Assembly: GCA_031273145.1 (NCBI GenBank)
Contig: JAISSL010000126.1
Location: forward strand, 1-5,254
DNA length: 5,254 nt
Reading direction: 5' to 3'
Origin: Zoogloeaceae bacterium
Lineage (GTDB): Bacteria > Pseudomonadota > Gammaproteobacteria > Burkholderiales > Rhodocyclaceae
Shown piece after piece: positions 1 to 5,254 of the stretch (within the stretch, counting starts at the first letter, position 1; every line of letters starts with the position of its first letter). A program made the position numbers and the translations under genes. The notes beneath the pieces were generated by a model. The model saw only the letters and a list, made by a program, of their open reading frames with translations. It had not been told where the DNA came from and made no database searches.

Positions 1-536
1 ATGTTCGTGCCTTCCTGCGCCGATTCCATACGCAGAGCCTCCATTAAAGCCCGAACAGCCCATTTTGTAGCGCAGTAAACCGCCGCGCCTGGGTATACTT
101 TTATTCCGGCAACCGATGAGGTTGCGATGACATGACCGGACTTCTGCTTCGTAAATTCCGGCAGGACGGCTTCGAGTCCATTCAGCACGCCCTTCAGATT
201 GACATCAACCATTCGATGCCATTCGCCCGTTTGCAGTTTCGATAAGGGCGCATTCGGCATAAGTCCGGCGTTGAGGAAAATAGCGTCAACCTGACCATAC
301 TCCGCTTTCGCCAGAGCAACCAGCTTGTGGTTGTCCCCAGCTTTTGTTACGTCCATCACCAGAAAAACCGCTTCGCCGCAGTTTTGCCTGATTTCCTCGG
401 TCAGCTTTTTCAGCTTAGCCTCACGCCTTGCGCCAAGAACCACCTTTGCGCCTTTGCTTGCCAGCATTTTTGCCGTCGCCTCGCCGATTCCCGACGACGC
501 GCCTGTGATGATGACCACCTTGTTTTGGATTGCCAT
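1..536 (-). CDS. Classical short-chain dehydrogenase/reductase (SDR), C-terminus beyond window
   Basis: This is an NAD(P)H-dependent oxidoreductase of the classical SDR family, presumably cytosolic; its substrate cannot be read from the sequence. I translated 178 codons from the ATG at 536-534; the frame stays open to base 1, so the 3' part (about 70 residues of a usual ~250) is missing. Family motifs are in order: the Rossmann glycine motif TGASSGIG at residues 11-18, the adenine-contacting D62 in MDVT, NAG at 89-91, N113, catalytic S141 in SSVAG, and Y154-x3-K158 (YCATK). Arginines after the second strand (GARRE, 36-40) are typical of NADP(H)-preferring members. The start is supported by GAGAGGA about 7 nt upstream. 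It is transcribed divergently from the cupin gene. All catalytic residues are intact, so it should be active. Confidence is high for the family and low for any specific reaction. Confidence 0.93.
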
Positions 537-736: not shown

Positions 737-1240
737 ATGAAACGCTTTTTACTTACTCTCGTCACACTTGCTCTGATAGCAGGCGCAAGCATCTACGGAG
801 GACAGACCATGGCTGAAGGTACCAAACAGACGCAAACCATCATTCGAGCTGGGGAGCAACCCTTCATCAAAGGACTCGGCGAATTCTTTACCGGCAATGT
901 GACCCTCCAGCGCCTGTTCGATCCCAAGCATCCTGATGCCCCTTTCGGAGCTGCGCGCGTGACCTTTGAACCGGGCGCCCGTACCTTTTGGCATGTACAT
1001 CCTGCCGGACAACATCTGATTGTTACGGATGGAGTGGGGCGTACCGGCACAGCAGGCGGTAAAGTCGAAGAGTTCCGAGCCGGTGACGTACTCTGGTGTC
1101 CTGCGGGCATAAAACATTGGCACGGAGCATCACCAGGTATGCCCATGACACATATCGCCCTGACCGGAACCCTGCCGGATGGGAAGAACGTGGAATGGAT
1201 GGAGGAAGTAACTGACCAACAGTATAACGGCGGGAAATAG
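737..1240 (+). CDS. Exported cupin-domain protein, related to cupin hydroxynitrile lyases
   Basis: The product is a 167-residue single-domain cupin, a small beta-barrel metalloprotein. Residues 1-26 look like a signal peptide: MKR, then a hydrophobic stretch, with likely cleavage after TMA, so the mature protein would be periplasmic or secreted. The cupin core shows motif 1 as WHVHPAGQ (H86, H88, Q92) and motif 2 as GDVLWCPAGIKHWHG (H127, H129), followed by MTH (H139) and a C-terminal WMEEVTDQQY. This pattern and the overall sequence resemble, from memory, the manganese-dependent (R)-selective cupin hydroxynitrile lyases of Acidobacteria, where two His, one Gln and a third His bind the metal. 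The true substrate may differ, since many members of this family are uncharacterised. The ATG at 737 was chosen because AAGGAG (726-731) precedes it and it gives a complete signal peptide. The frame is open further upstream but without support. The gene is convergent with the trpD remnant and divergent from the SDR. Confidence 0.92.
   Translation: MKRFLLTLVTLALIAGASIYGGQTMAEGTKQTQTIIRAGEQPFIKGLGEFFTGNVTLQRLFDPKHPDAPFGAARVTFEPGARTFWHVHPAGQHLIVTDGVGRTGTAGGKVEEFRAGDVLWCPAGIKHWHGASPGMPMTHIALTGTLPDGKNVEWMEEVTDQQYNGGK
797..811 (+). promoter_or_regulatory. Strong internal ribosome binding site and ATG (Met25) in the cupin gene
   Basis: GGAGGA (797-802) lies 6 nt before the in-frame ATG at 809-811, exactly where the mature domain begins (MAEGTK). 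Initiation here would give a 143-residue cupin without signal peptide. The SD match is at least as good as that of the upstream start. Either the gene makes exported and cytosolic forms, or the real start is here and the upstream signal-like stretch is fortuitous. The clear KR plus hydrophobic segment argues against the latter. Confidence 0.4.
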
Positions 1241-1523: not shown

Positions 1524-2096
1524 CTATTCCTTTGCGTTATCCAGAAAGTTGCGGAACAGGTCGTGTCCGCGCTCGGAAAGCACCGACTCAGGATGAAACT
1601 GTACTCCTTCGACGAGACAGGTGCGATGGCGCAAGCCCATGATTTCGCCATCCTCTGCCCAGGCGGTAATTTCAAGGCAATCGGGGAGCGTTTCCCGCTC
1701 AACCGCCAGCGAATGATAGCGTGTACAGGCGAGTGGATTGGGCAATGCCCGGAACATCCCTTTGCCCTCATGCCGCACCTTGGAGCATTTGCCGTGCATC
1801 AGGCGTTTGGCGTGGACAACCTTGCCGCCGAAGGCTTCGCCGATGGCCTGATGCCCCAGGCAAACGCCCAGCAGTGGAATTTTTCCGGCAAACCTGCGAA
1901 TGGCGGCCAGCGAGATGCCTGCTTGCGCGGGCGCACAGGGACCGGGGCCGATGACGATCTGCGCGGGTTCGAGCGCGTTGATTTCTTCCAGCGTGATGGC
2001 ATCGTTACGGAACACCCGCACATCCGCCCCCAACTCGCCAAGATACTGCGCGATGTTCCAGGTGAAGCTGTCGTAATTGTCAATCATCAGCAGCAT
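1524..2096 (-). CDS. trpG: Anthranilate/aminodeoxychorismate synthase glutamine amidotransferase subunit
   Basis: This class I glutamine amidotransferase subunit hydrolyses glutamine and passes ammonia to TrpE (anthranilate) or PabB (4-amino-4-deoxychorismate). It has 190 residues, the normal full length. Visible motifs are DNYDSFTWN (7-15), the GPGP oxyanion region (50-53), the nucleophile elbow GVCLGHQ with catalytic C79, MHGK (100-103), TRYHSL (125-130), and the H168/E170 pair in [16 protein letters not shown] replaces the more usual CTPNEAG, a conservative-looking variation. The ATG at 2096 starts directly at the conserved [10 protein letters not shown]. No strong SD lies close to it; GAGG occurs about 26 nt upstream, beyond a small hairpin. 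trpG and pabA products are hard to separate by sequence and some are shared. The broken trpD downstream and the absence of trpE in the 250 nt upstream leave the PabA role open. Confidence 0.95.
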
Positions 2097-2350: not shown

Positions 2351-2809
2351 TTACCGTTTTTCAGTGCCGATCAGCTCGCAAATCCGCTCGTAGTCGCCTT
2401 TTTTCTGGAAGTCCGTCGTCAGTTGTTTCCAGAGGTCAAATGCGCCGGTTGAGTTTTCCGCGTTTGGGGAACCGGAGATCAGTTTTTCCGCCTGCGCTGT
2501 GATTTCCGCATACGTCCACACTCTTTCTTCATTGACAAAGAAGAGTCCGCCCCGCCTGGCTACCTCATACTGCTCTGTCCTGGGTGTTTCCGCAGCCTGT
2601 TTTTTCTTCAACTGGTTCAGCTCCATCAATACAGGCGTCAGTTCCATGGAAACCGACATGTATCTGGATTCCAGACTGGAACGTTCAATGACATTTCCCT
2701 CAGGAACCTGATCCAGCAGATTGTTTATCTCGTTCAGTTCAGAGAGGATATTGCGGCTTTGCTCGGTCAGGTCGTCGAATCGGGCTTGTTCCCAGGCTTT
2801 GAGTTCCAT
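2351..2809 (-). CDS. Unrecognised coiled-coil protein with WTYAEITAQAE block (paralog of its upstream neighbour)
   Basis: I do not recognise this 152-residue protein. There is no signal peptide or membrane segment, so it is probably cytosolic. Residues 5-72 are a charged heptad-like helix with EINNLLDQVPEGN (27-39), matching EINALLASMPEEN in the neighbour. A short strand-like stretch YEVARRGGLFFV (81-92) leads into RVWTYAEITAQAE (96-108). The C-terminal part has LWKQLTTDFQ (126-135) and DYERICELI (139-147), both shared with the upstream gene. It is last of the five-gene operon, 9 nt after the preceding stop, and AGGAAG in that gap serves as ribosome binding site. The two genes look like an old tandem duplication that kept the C-terminal half best and drifted in the coiled coil. 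Function is unknown; a homo- or hetero-oligomer with its paralog is an inference from the coiled coils. Confidence 0.85.
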   Translation of the reverse strand: MELKAWEQARFDDLTEQSRNILSELNEINNLLDQVPEGNVIERSSLESRYMSVSMELTPVLMELNQLKKKQAAETPRTEQYEVARRGGLFFVNEERVWTYAEITAQAEKLISGSPNAENSTGAFDLWKQLTTDFQKKGDYERICELIGTEKR

Positions 2810-2818
2810 GGTCTTCCT

Positions 2819-3388
2819 TCAGGGTTGATTTTTGTTGTCCGGTTTTAGAGGCGTCGTCTTGCCTTGCAGAAAATCGCCGATGTCCTTTCTGCCAGTCGTG
2901 GAGCTGATCAGCTCGCAAATCCGCGCGTAATCCTCGGTATCCTGGAAATTCAACGTCAGGTCTTTCCAGAGACCATACACGCCCAGTTTGGCTTCCAGCC
3001 CCATTATGCCGGTAAGGGTTGTTTCGGTCTGGGCGGTGATCTCTTCATAAGTCCAAAGCCGCGCGCTTTCTCCGTTCTCGCCTCTGCCCACAAGGTAGAA
3101 GTGACCGTCGCGCATGACCACGGTGTATCTTCCGGCTCGTGAGGCTGCCGAACTTTCATTCCTCAGCTCTTCCAGCTTCTTGCCGACCTCCTCAAGTTCC
3201 CTGAAAACAAATTCCAGTTCGTCGGATTCATCTTCCAGCCTTCCTTCCAGGCTCAAGCGCGCATCCGCATTTTCTTCCGGCATTGAGGCCAGTAATGCGT
3301 TGATTTCAGCAACCTCTGACCGAATGGTGGCGATCTCCATCAGCAGCCTGTCGCGCCTTATCATGAGATGTTCTGTACCGTATGTCAT
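2819..3388 (-). CDS. Unrecognised coiled-coil protein with LWTYEEITAQTE block
   Basis: This is the largest product of the operon at 189 residues, and I cannot place it in a family. Residues 8-78 form a long, highly charged helix with heptad character (ending KKLEELRNESS). Then comes a likely beta hairpin, RYTVVMRDGHFYLV (87-100), a glycine/glutamate-rich turn, and the shared block RLWTYEEITAQTE (110-122). After it, GLWKDLTLNFQ (139-149) and DYARICELI (153-161) match the downstream paralog. A lysine/proline-rich tail (residues 165-189) is unique to this copy. It has no signal peptide or membrane segment. The ATG at 3388 follows TAGGAG by 6 nt and lies 9 nt after the stop of the preceding gene, so translation is probably coupled. 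The last shared segment is also nearly identical in DNA to the paralog (19 identical bases), supporting duplication. Confidence 0.86.
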   Translation of the reverse strand: MTYGTEHLMIRRDRLLMEIATIRSEVAEINALLASMPEENADARLSLEGRLEDESDELEFVFRELEEVGKKLEELRNESSAASRAGRYTVVMRDGHFYLVGRGENGESARLWTYEEITAQTETTLTGIMGLEAKLGVYGLWKDLTLNFQDTEDYARICELISSTTGRKDIGDFLQGKTTPLKPDNKNQP

Positions 3389-3397
3389 GACGTTCTC

Positions 3398-3664
3398 CTA
3401 TGTTCCGTCTTGCCAACTGCCGGGTTTTTTGGGATTGGTGTCCATCAGGCGTACCTGCCGTTCAAGATCGTCCTCAAACGCCTGTTCTTCACCTGGATCA
3501 AGCGCCTGATTTACCTTCGCAAGAGCCTTTTCGGCGCACTCCCTGTCTTCTGCGGAATGGGGGCCGACCCCAGAACCACCTTGCTCCAGATATTGCAGCA
3601 ATGCCTTGAGAACAACGTACAGTTCATCACTGCTGAAGGGTACTGCTGCCAGTGCCTGTATCAT
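3398..3664 (-). CDS. Unrecognised small acidic helical protein
   Basis: This 88-residue product has no family I recognise and lacks the WxYxExTAQ block of its neighbours. Residues 11-29 (SSDELYVVLKALLQYLEQG) and 38-76 (starting AEDRECAEKALAKV) look like two amphipathic, acidic helices. They are joined by a glycine/serine linker and followed by a polar tail ending PGSWQDGT. There is one Cys (C43) and no membrane segment. The start is well defined: GGAGGG sits 8 nt before the ATG, and only one base separates it from the stop codon of the gene before, so coupled translation is likely. Its position inside the operon, between two genes of the shared family, suggests it is a partner of them. This is inferred from position only. 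Confidence 0.8.
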   Translation of the reverse strand: MIQALAAVPFSSDELYVVLKALLQYLEQGGSGVGPHSAEDRECAEKALAKVNQALDPGEEQAFEDDLERQVRLMDTNPKKPGSWQDGT

Positions 3665-3665
3665 T

Positions 3666-4031
3666 TTATGTACCCTCCACAGAAAACAGGTATTTCATGG
3701 CTTCCTTGGCTTTCATGTCGACGCAGGCCAGGTTGGCTAGACGCTCATCGTCTTCCAGTTTCACGCAGCCGGTGTCCTTGACAAGATTATGCCAGTGCCA
3801 ATATGTTGTGCGCGCCCGGTCGAGCCACTGCAACATCGTTATTGCGCCTTCCATCTGTGGCGCTTCCATGATGTAGTGACGTATCCAGTACTCTGCCTGC
3901 GCCGTCAGTTCTTCGTAGCTCCACAGGCGCTTTCCATCCTCAGTTACAAACCTGGGCGAAGCGTCTGTATCCGCAAGTTTCTTGCCAATACGCCGTAGCG
4001 CCTCGTATTTTGTTTCGTCAGTTGTGTCCAT
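3666..4031 (-). CDS. Unrecognised protein with LWSYEELTAQAE block, no coiled coil
   Basis: This 121-residue product carries the same core as the two larger operon proteins but lacks their N-terminal coiled coil. A short helix (residues 8-20) leads to PRFVTEDGKRLWSYEELTAQAE (26-47), the clearest form of the shared block. Then comes a tryptophan- and histidine-rich stretch around 69-81 (WLDRARTTYWHWH) where the paralogs have LWKxLTxxFQ. A further 40 residues (DDERLANLACVDMKAKEAMKY) are specific to this copy. It has two cysteines (C89, C103) and no signal peptide or membrane segment. The ATG at 4031 follows AGAGGT in the end of the upstream gene, with a single base between stop and start. Function is unknown; it may be the minimal version of the domain. 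Confidence 0.84.
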   Translation of the reverse strand: MDTTDETKYEALRRIGKKLADTDASPRFVTEDGKRLWSYEELTAQAEYWIRHYIMEAPQMEGAITMLQWLDRARTTYWHWHNLVKDTGCVKLEDDERLANLACVDMKAKEAMKYLFSVEGT

Positions 4032-4032
4032 G

Positions 4033-4188
4033 CTATTTACCTCTTTGTTGTGGAGAATTCCCTGGCTGGTTGTCAGCTTCGTGGGTAAGCTTTTCCAGCA
4101 TGGGGCTGTCTTTGGTCTTGATGCGACCGGGTTTCCGCTTCATGAGTTCATGCAGGTTCTGCATTGTAGCTGGTTCCTTTGTTGCCAT
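4033..4188 (-). CDS. Small basic unrecognised protein, first gene of the operon
   Basis: The product is 51 residues from the chosen start, rich in Lys/Arg in its middle (LMKRKPGRIKTKDS, 15-28). It ends in a Pro/Gln/Gly/Asn-rich tail that is probably disordered. It has no cysteine, membrane segment or recognisable domain. The stop is one base from the next ATG, so it belongs to the operon. The start is uncertain. The ATG at 4188 has only GAGAA about 9 nt upstream. An ATG at 4326 in the same frame would give 97 residues (N-terminus MQRNDHECSQLLDPQ) with no better SD. The candidate promoter with a start near 4385 fits the longer form somewhat better. The 4188 start was preferred because MATKEP is a natural N-terminus and the extension has mixed composition. 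A basic, partly disordered peptide could bind nucleic acid or the acidic partners, but this is speculation. Confidence 0.55.
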   Translation of the reverse strand: MATKEPATMQNLHELMKRKPGRIKTKDSPMLEKLTHEADNQPGNSPQQRGK

Positions 4189-4563
4189 TTTAATGTTCTC
4201 ATCATTGTACTCCGCTTCAGGGATTTCGTTGTCCTTTACAAAAAAATACAGAAGGCGGGATAAGTGGACATGGTTGCGCGGCTGGGGATCAAGAAGCTGT
4301 GAGCATTCATGGTCGTTGCGCTGCATGGAGAGTACCCCAGGGTGGTCAAGAATTTCAGTTTGCCAGAATCAATTTCCAGGAACTCATTGATGTTATCATG
4401 GGCAACATGGAACGTGACAACGCTTCGAAGAACCTAACAAACCGCATGTCCTCACAATCTAGGGATATATCATGAATGCCGTTGGGTTTGCCTCTCACCC
4501 TCAAGTGGGCGGCTAATACCGTCGCTTAACACTTTAACCAAGCCGTCAGACATCCAATCAAGG
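4189..4563. other. Gene-poor gap between cysS and the small-protein operon
   Basis: I see no confident gene here. Several short frames stay open on both strands. One on the minus strand (about 4433-4240) reads protein-like, with SVVTFHVAHDNINEFLEID. A plus-strand frame around 4346-4474 also reads well (FQELIDVIMGNMERDN). Neither has a convincing start or known motif, so this may be a worn remnant of an older gene or mobile element. No intrinsic terminator is visible after cysS; only a weak TTAA-containing stem near 4523-4542 was seen. The candidate operon promoter lies within it. Confidence 0.4.
4392..4420 (-). promoter_or_regulatory. Candidate sigma70 promoter of the small-protein operon
   Basis: On the minus strand TTGTCA (4420-4415, 5/6 match) is followed after 17 nt by GATAAC (4397-4392, 4/6 match). 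Transcription would start near 4385, about 60 nt before the alternative ATG at 4326 or about 200 nt before the ATG at 4188. A TACAAT box just before 4188 has no -35 and would leave too short a leader, so it was not chosen. Confidence 0.3.
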
Positions 4564-5254
4564 CTAAACCCGCCGCCAGGTCGTTCCCTGGGGACTGTCT
4601 TCCAATAAAATCCCGGCTGCTTTGAGGTCATCCCGAATCTGGTCGGCGCGGGCGAAATTTTTGGCCTTTTTCGCGGCGGCGCGTTCCTCAATTTTTGCCG
4701 TGATGGCCTCGACGGAAATCGCTGCATCCGCTTCTCCCGGCAGGGCGCGCAGATAGTCAAGCGGATCGCGGGTCAGCAAACCAAGCAGAGCACCCAAGCG
4801 ACGTAGTTCTGCGGATAGCGCGCCATCCCGGTTCTTTCGGGCTTCGCTCGCCAGCAGAAACAGGGCGGCAATTGCGTTCGGCGTATCAAAATCGTCATCC
4901 ATTGCCGCCTTGAAACGCGCCGCATGGGGATTCTGCCAGTCAATCTCCGCGTTATCCATTACAGGCGGCACATCCCGCAGCGTGAAATAGAGCGTATCCA
5001 GACTTTCCCGCGCATCCAGCAGATGCGCGTCGGAATAGTTGAGCGGACTCCGGTAGTGGGCACGCAGCATGAAAAACCGGATAACTTCCGCATCGTAGTG
5101 TTTCAGCACTTCGCGGATGGTGAAAAAGTTGCCCAACGACTTGGACATTTTTTCGTCGTCGACCCGGACAAAGCCATTGTGCATCCAGTAATTGACGAAA
5201 ATCCCGCTGTGCGCCCCTTCGGATTGGGCAATCTCGTTTTCGTGATGGGGAAAC
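4564..5254 (-). CDS. cysS: Cysteinyl-tRNA synthetase, C-terminal half (5' end beyond window)
   Basis: CysRS charges tRNA-Cys with cysteine, using ATP, in the cytosol; it is an essential class I synthetase. The 229 visible residues run from the window edge to a TAG at 4566-4564; the family is about 460 residues, so the HIGH half is off the window. The first visible residues [12 protein letters not shown] contain two of the zinc-site ligands known in the E. coli enzyme (first His and second Glu of HHENE). The ATP-binding signature KMSKS is intact at visible residues 35-39, followed by [19 protein letters not shown] marks the DALR/helical domain. The end ([18 protein letters not shown] ... GTTWRR) is the normal CysRS C-terminus plus one valine. 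A start codon is not visible; the ATG at 5184 is an internal methionine (WMHNG). It runs in the same direction as the small-protein operon but is 375 nt away. Confidence 0.97.

Follow-up and report, generated by a model that had tools for sequence, protein, structure and literature searches.

A cluster of five small minus-strand genes (2351-4188) is carried by the Zoogloeaceae contig JAISSL010000126.1, whose complete 5,254 bp (contig C4) were analysed and are called the window below. Three of the five products share a W-[TS]-Y-x-E-[IL]-T-A-Q-[AT]-E block, and we found that they belong to a lineage-restricted orphan family, expanded by duplication, which is not a recognised defence or toxin system. 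We are confident that the family is nearly unique and duplicated, and that the genes g189 and g152 of the cluster are full-length tandem duplicates. As to its role, we put forward a tentative reading that falls short of being probable: a near-unique, duplicated family, assembled through a helical hairpin, whose members may modulate XRE-type DNA-binding regulators as their partners.

Members of the family and their relations

The block belongs to a C-terminal domain of about 85 residues. It was found, exactly as a sequence-only reading of this DNA had claimed, in three of the five products: RLWSYEELTAQAE in g121 (residues 35-47; 3891..3929), RLWTYEEITAQTE in g189 (residues 110-122; 3023..3061) and RVWTYAEITAQAE in g152 (residues 96-108; 2486..2524), all on the minus strand. 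In g189 (189 residues, pI 4.7; 2819..3388, minus strand) the block domain is joined to a coiled-coil hairpin, and in g121 (121 residues, pI 5.2; 3666..4031, minus strand) it stands without one. The product of g152 (152 residues, pI 4.75; 2351..2809, minus strand) is a paralog of g189 along its full length, with 41% identity over 153 columns and a BLASTP E-value of about 1e-28 in a database of nine proteins. Contig C135 of the same genome encodes another full-length member, x201, which is 65% identical to g189 over 180 residues. The two-part sequence build, hairpin plus C-terminal domain, is common to g189, g152, x201 and P0005, a 177-residue JGI protein that is 58% identical to g152. The C-terminus of g152 is shorter than those of g189, x201 and P0005.

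When g121 was compared with each of g189, g152, x201 and P0005, the Smith-Waterman score was reached by none of 2000 shuffles, and the likeness extends past the block to a tryptophan and then to ED-x-ER-x-x-x-L. Thirteen columns are invariant in the five sequences, two of them in the hairpin part and 11 in the C-terminal domain (R, W, Y, E, T, A, E, W, D, R and L). The two remaining products of the cluster gave no such signal: the scores of g88 (against g189, g121 and g152) and of g51 (against g189 and g121) were reached by 121 to 1864 of 2000 shuffles. The sequence-only reading had seen in the cluster one domain used in different contexts. The shared block stands, and the different contexts do not, since g189 and g152 result from the duplication of a whole protein; this kinship, the likeness of g121 beyond the block and the paralog x201 had all escaped that reading.

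Between g189 and x201, the rate of non-synonymous change (dN) is 0.27-0.28 and that of synonymous change (dS) 0.85-0.95. The resulting dN/dS of 0.28-0.33 suggests that amino-acid change has been held back, and opposes the earlier suggestion that the copies are variants exposed to selection.

Predicted structure

In the AlphaFold2 model of g189, computed from three aligned rows, residues 5-83 (3140..3376, minus strand) form a confidently predicted antiparallel helical hairpin, for which the ten-residue mean of the predicted local distance difference test (pLDDT) is 88-96 over residues 11-70. Helical hairpins are a usual means of oligomerization, and the model suggests that the family oligomerizes through its coiled-coil hairpin. 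For g121, a model from four rows shows short strands and a helical bundle with a mean pLDDT of 69. Foldseek returned no match at E<=0.001 for either the g189 or the g121 model. The structure matches obtained with VIA are generic helical bundles and hairpins, and a family missing there may still exist. Sequence matches to solved structures were limited to occludin coiled coils, one monobody and designed proteins, which were mostly consensus tetratricopeptide repeats (TPRs).

Two likenesses to known motifs were considered and set aside. The stretch LWKQLTTDFQKKGDYERI of g152 resembles helix A of the consensus TPR, W-x-x-L-x-x-x-F/Y-x-x-x-GDY. It is one half-motif, single alignments have E-values of 71 or worse in the five matches printed, and the listed E-values sum over the repeats of designed proteins. 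The block itself resembles the strand-turn-helix of motif A1, L-[TS]-Y-x-E-L, in the ANL (AMP-binding) adenylation enzymes. The proteins are only 121-201 residues long, there is no AMP-binding match in Pfam or NCBIfam at E<=1, and pieces of 30 and 70 residues gave no AMP-binding match in Pfam at E<=10.

The five-gene cluster

The five open reading frames (ORFs) were re-derived as claimed, with gaps of 1, 1, 9 and 9 nt, and the Shine-Dalgarno sequences reported for four genes were recognised by eye as ribosome sites of the AGGA, GGAGG or GAGG type; on the 51-residue ORF no site is clear by eye. From their spacing, the five genes are probably carried on one transcript. The first of them, g51 (4033..4188, minus strand), encodes a basic protein of 51 residues (pI 9.9), and g88 (3398..3664, minus strand), between g121 and g189, encodes an acidic one of 88 residues (pI 4.4). 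The products look soluble, as had been proposed, with a GRAVY hydropathy index of -0.5 to -0.7 for four of them and -1.4 for g51 (no membrane predictor was run). The earlier statement that none has a recognisable enzymatic motif is borne out as well: enzyme families were unmatched at their cut-offs.

Coding status was assessed with a codon-usage model whose training set was ten stretches (nine genes) from this genome, the z score being taken against base shuffles. The annotated frame scored best for all five ORFs, with z values of 3.9-5.9 for the four larger ones and 1.9 for g51. Since an in-frame extension of g51 to an ATG at 4326 reaches a z of 3.6, the first gene is the least certain of the five and may, on codon usage, be 97 residues long. 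We also considered the upstream frame 4189-4326 as a degenerate copy of the block, and rejected it: the scores of the 97-residue form were reached by 33, 121, 162 and 565 of 1000 shuffles, the first of these, against g121, being a weak hint at most.

Distribution

A four-row family profile (A1) was searched against 5.8 billion proteins and matched five of them at E<=1, namely g189, x201, g152, g121 and P0005 (E 1.2e-39), which is the only outside relative found in that collection. P0005 lies on a contig of 21,210 bp. Its JGI name, 'DNA-binding HxlR family transcriptional regulator', is unbacked by Pfam at E<=10 and was given no weight. As single queries of the same collection, g189 retrieved itself and x201 only, and g121 itself only; the queries of this collection were g189, g121 and A1. 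A further contig carries g121 (two contigs counted, the longest of 13,654 bp). The protein search relies on shared exact words, and peptide-pattern scans reach close relatives only. As the g189 query missed g152, at 41% identity, distant relatives may escape this search.

Single queries of genome, phage, plasmid and protein collections were made with proteins other than g152 and g51, and protein searches of other whole genomes with proteins other than g88 and g51. Among 60 relatives, g189 was matched at E<=0.001 in its own genome only. Profile searches were made in sets of 20 genomes of the genus, 395 of the family and 399 of the order, which overlap and include the own genome. In the genus set, seven genomes matched at E<=1, the own genome and six weak cases (E 0.008-0.05); we do not count the latter as relatives; they align to profile positions 3-84, in the coiled coil, within frames of 217-566 residues. 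The family set yielded the own genome only, and the order set the own genome and one other, G702, which we do not count as a relative (E 2.5e-5, positions 6-92, mainly coiled coil, in a 697-residue frame). No relative was confirmed in viral contigs (IMG/VR) for A1, P0005, A5, g88 and g121, in genomes of the species by peptide pattern for g189 and P0005, in phage records (INPHARED) for g189 and g88, or in plasmids for the cluster DNA, P0005, g88 and g121. Four peptides of the block, looked for in the full text of the open library, occurred in no paper, and wider literature searches, judged from titles and the starts of abstracts, showed nothing on the family.

The earlier description of an unrecognised family, present in several versions in a tight cluster, is upheld: none of the five cluster proteins matched a family at cut-off in Pfam or NCBIfam, and the block matched no characterised family in the libraries searched. 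In PHROGs, nothing was found below E 0.06 for the five proteins. Virtually all matches below cut-off lie in the coiled coil, and they include ASRP (E 0.01, NCBIfam) and, for x201, Mod_r (E 0.0011, Pfam). The effector-associated domain EAD9 (PF19962) likewise shows a weak likeness to the hairpin (E 0.028 for g189 and 0.055 for g152), at 14.6 and 13.7 bits for a cut-off of 25, and helical hairpins readily give such matches. Two sub-threshold Rfam hits are taken as chance.

A second locus beside two XRE genes

On contig C135 (5,347 bp), the minus strand carries xre217, xre181 and x201 in that order, with an overlap between the two xre genes and 25 nt between xre181 and the start of x201. Both regulators, XRE217 and XRE181, exceed the curated Pfam cut-offs for HTH_3 and HTH_31; with 29-33% identity, they are also relatives of one another. 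The tandem genes occupy 1054-2249 of this locus, and the C-terminal halves of their products are alike and under all Pfam cut-offs. These halves had no match in 19 other genomes of the genus (E<=0.001). At E<=0.001, an alignment of the two XRE proteins had matches in 10 of the 20 genus genomes: over its full length in the own genome, and confined to the helix-turn-helix (HTH) part (positions 9-89 of 218) in the other nine. No relative of xre181 was found in the viral contigs, plasmids or phages searched. At the end of x201 lies a truncated frame resembling a MazE/VapB antitoxin (273-413 of the same locus; MazE_antitoxin E 0.00045, 20.5 bits, below the cut-off of 24.7).

The genes g121, g88 and g51 are missing from C135, and the match of the cluster DNA there is limited to g189 and x201; at the protein level, the g121 block also matches x201. 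At the only other locus seen, then, the five genes do not stay together. The sequence-only reading had treated them as belonging together, and this picture is weakened in part by x201, which occurs without the other four and beside two XRE genes.

Genome setting and neighbouring genes

The window comes from a draft genome of 1.98 Mb in 294 contigs, with a completeness of 86%. Besides the cluster, it carries an SDR (short-chain dehydrogenase/reductase) dehydrogenase gene that is cut off (3-536, minus strand), a cupin gene of the (R)-mandelonitrile lyase family (coding part about 737-1240, plus strand; NF049940 above cut-off in NCBIfam), a broken trpD (1276-1480), trpG (1524-2096, minus strand) and the C-terminal part of cysS (4564-5253, minus strand). 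In the genus, the CysS part finds its closest match at 84% identity and TrpG at 82%, which is consistent with C4 being part of this genome. By eye, the cupin has a signal-peptide-like start, and its GC content at third codon positions (GC3) is 0.53, low for the genome. The broken trpD consists of two short pieces with an inner gap. An intact trpD (321 residues) is found on contig C232 (7075-8040), the end of which coincides with position 1480 of the window, an arrangement that may reflect a strain mixture, a duplication or a rearrangement. Of 15 trpG loci of relatives (without L052, the second such locus of G018), 11 have a match to trpD no more than about 1.2 kb downstream.

Both family loci were probably acquired as DNA on islands, because their GC content is lower, they have no match in genus relatives and the neighbourhood of cysS is variable. 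Eight genes of the two loci have a GC content of 0.494-0.542, and 14 stretches elsewhere in the genome one of 0.538-0.588, a comparison in which the sample is small, the ranges touch and the cupin of the window is equally low in GC3. Among 16 flanks following cysS in the genus (four shorter than 700 bp, and that of G004 starting inside cysS, a partial match), tblastx matches at E<=1e-10 were seen in four pairs only, and the window cluster had no match at E<=1e-3. No integron attC site was seen by eye (no tool was run).

The segment 2215-2350 is a mosaic of short dispersed repeats; at E<=0.001, it matches the own genome at 15 additional sites and the 19 other genus genomes at none. Several copies run on into CGTCATTCC-x-GCG-type stretches (nine copies aligned). 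We take the mosaic to be reminiscent of the dRS3/NIME repeats of Neisseria. Upstream of the cluster, a 47-bp segment (4482-4528) is matched at 83% on contig C269 and is perhaps another dispersed repeat.

Possible functions

What, then, might such proteins do? Taken by itself, the idea that they are partners of XRE proteins is, on our analysis, doubtful, and it starts from C135. The reading that we favour for x201 is that of a partner of its XRE proteins, because this pair are the only co-directional neighbours of any family member with a recognisable job, and because BldB/DUF397 proteins offer a parallel, being small, acidic, XRE-adjacent, hetero-oligomerizing, reported not to bind DNA and present as multiple paralogs. 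PMC10294661 describes BldB as a small acidic protein that has paralogs beside genes for XRE-type WhiJ, hetero-oligomerizes with paralogs and is reported not to bind DNA; there, and in PMC6262351, BldB/DUF397 proteins appear as Streptomyces partners of XRE regulators. Similarly, the family described here has acidic paralogous copies (g121, g189 and g152, pI 4.7-5.2, which favours a partner role), x201 is encoded directly after XRE regulators, and the hairpin model predicts oligomerization. The differences are that its members are larger (121-201 residues), mostly with a coiled-coil hairpin, and that the three window copies have no adjacent XRE gene whereas the C135 copy has two.

In the mechanism that we propose, the coiled-coil hairpin would assemble family members into oligomers, and the C-terminal domain would bind XRE proteins or its own kind, as is thought for BldB-type proteins with WhiJ-type XRE proteins. 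The cognate partner of the XRE pair would be x201, and g189, g152 and g121 would be extra copies acting in trans through mixed oligomers; alternatively, the window copies may have taken on a related job. That these proteins form a new class, a hairpin plus a W-[TS]-Y-E domain with one copy wired to an XRE pair and an operon of free copies that tunes it by mixed assembly, strikes us as rather unlikely.

Several observations count against XRE partnership. There is no XRE gene in the window cluster, so that C135 is the single locus to connect the family with XRE proteins. The g189 model after residue 80, which comprises strands and helices, has ten-residue mean pLDDT values of only 31-56. DUF397 had no Pfam match at E<=1, nor at E<=10 for P0005, P0002 and two pieces, and the family would therefore work like BldB without being a member. 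Moreover, the biochemical function of BldB itself is called unknown in PMC10294661.

Among other explanations, the five genes may encode one accessory complex, for example an anti-phage defence module in which paralogous coiled-coil subunits join g88 and g51. Their tight spacing, the predicted coiled coil and the likely island location agree with this, and the XRE proteins of C135 match the PADLOC families HTH_VI (E 1.2e-7), RmrA (3.3e-7) and capH (1.5e-6). However, such matches are expected of any XRE domain (generic HTH, 13 families each), no enzyme or effector family was matched in any product, and the C135 paralog occurs without g121, g88 and g51. In PADLOC, g121, g88, g152 and g51 had no hit at E<=1, and g189 had weak coiled-coil matches only (JetC, E 0.0075; LmuB, E 0.0094). 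The sequence-only reading had invoked defence, phage-derived or toxin-antidote loci; the cluster proteins match none of these beyond such weak hits, and we consider a defence complex unlikely.

The genes could also be passengers on acquired islands, duplicated copies that now do little and are in slow decay. The neighbouring trpD is broken, the family is extremely rare, and g152, which lacks the C-terminus of its relatives, ends at a stop codon adjoined by the edge of the dispersed repeat at 2350. Yet all five frames are open, four of them with ribosome sites, and the dN/dS between g189 and x201 is about 0.3, which also counts against it; we give this explanation little credit.

An array of immunity or antitoxin-like proteins, tandem and divergent neutralisers of a toxin encoded elsewhere, would fit small acidic paralogs arranged in tandem, and the MazE/VapB-like frame beside the second locus points the same way. 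We regard it as improbable: no known toxin gene was recognised in the window or on C135, change between g189 and x201 is restrained rather than diversifying, and the Pfam immunity families gave no match at E<=1. Finally, secretion of the proteins into a host or rival cell is very improbable, given a structure-match Z score under about 13, the tool's meaningful level for helical bundles, a g121 model of middling confidence, and sequences in which the eye finds neither a signal peptide nor a membrane segment.

Duplicated families that are confined to one lineage and lack known relatives supply raw material for new bacterial functions, and this small family, with a clear two-part build and two loci of one genome with different partners, could be used as a test case for how orphan families gain copies and contexts. 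If XRE partnership holds, the family would be an independent parallel to the BldB-type partner proteins, and the new class outlined above, if real, would represent an orphan regulatory circuit carried on islands and seen close to its origin in a single species.

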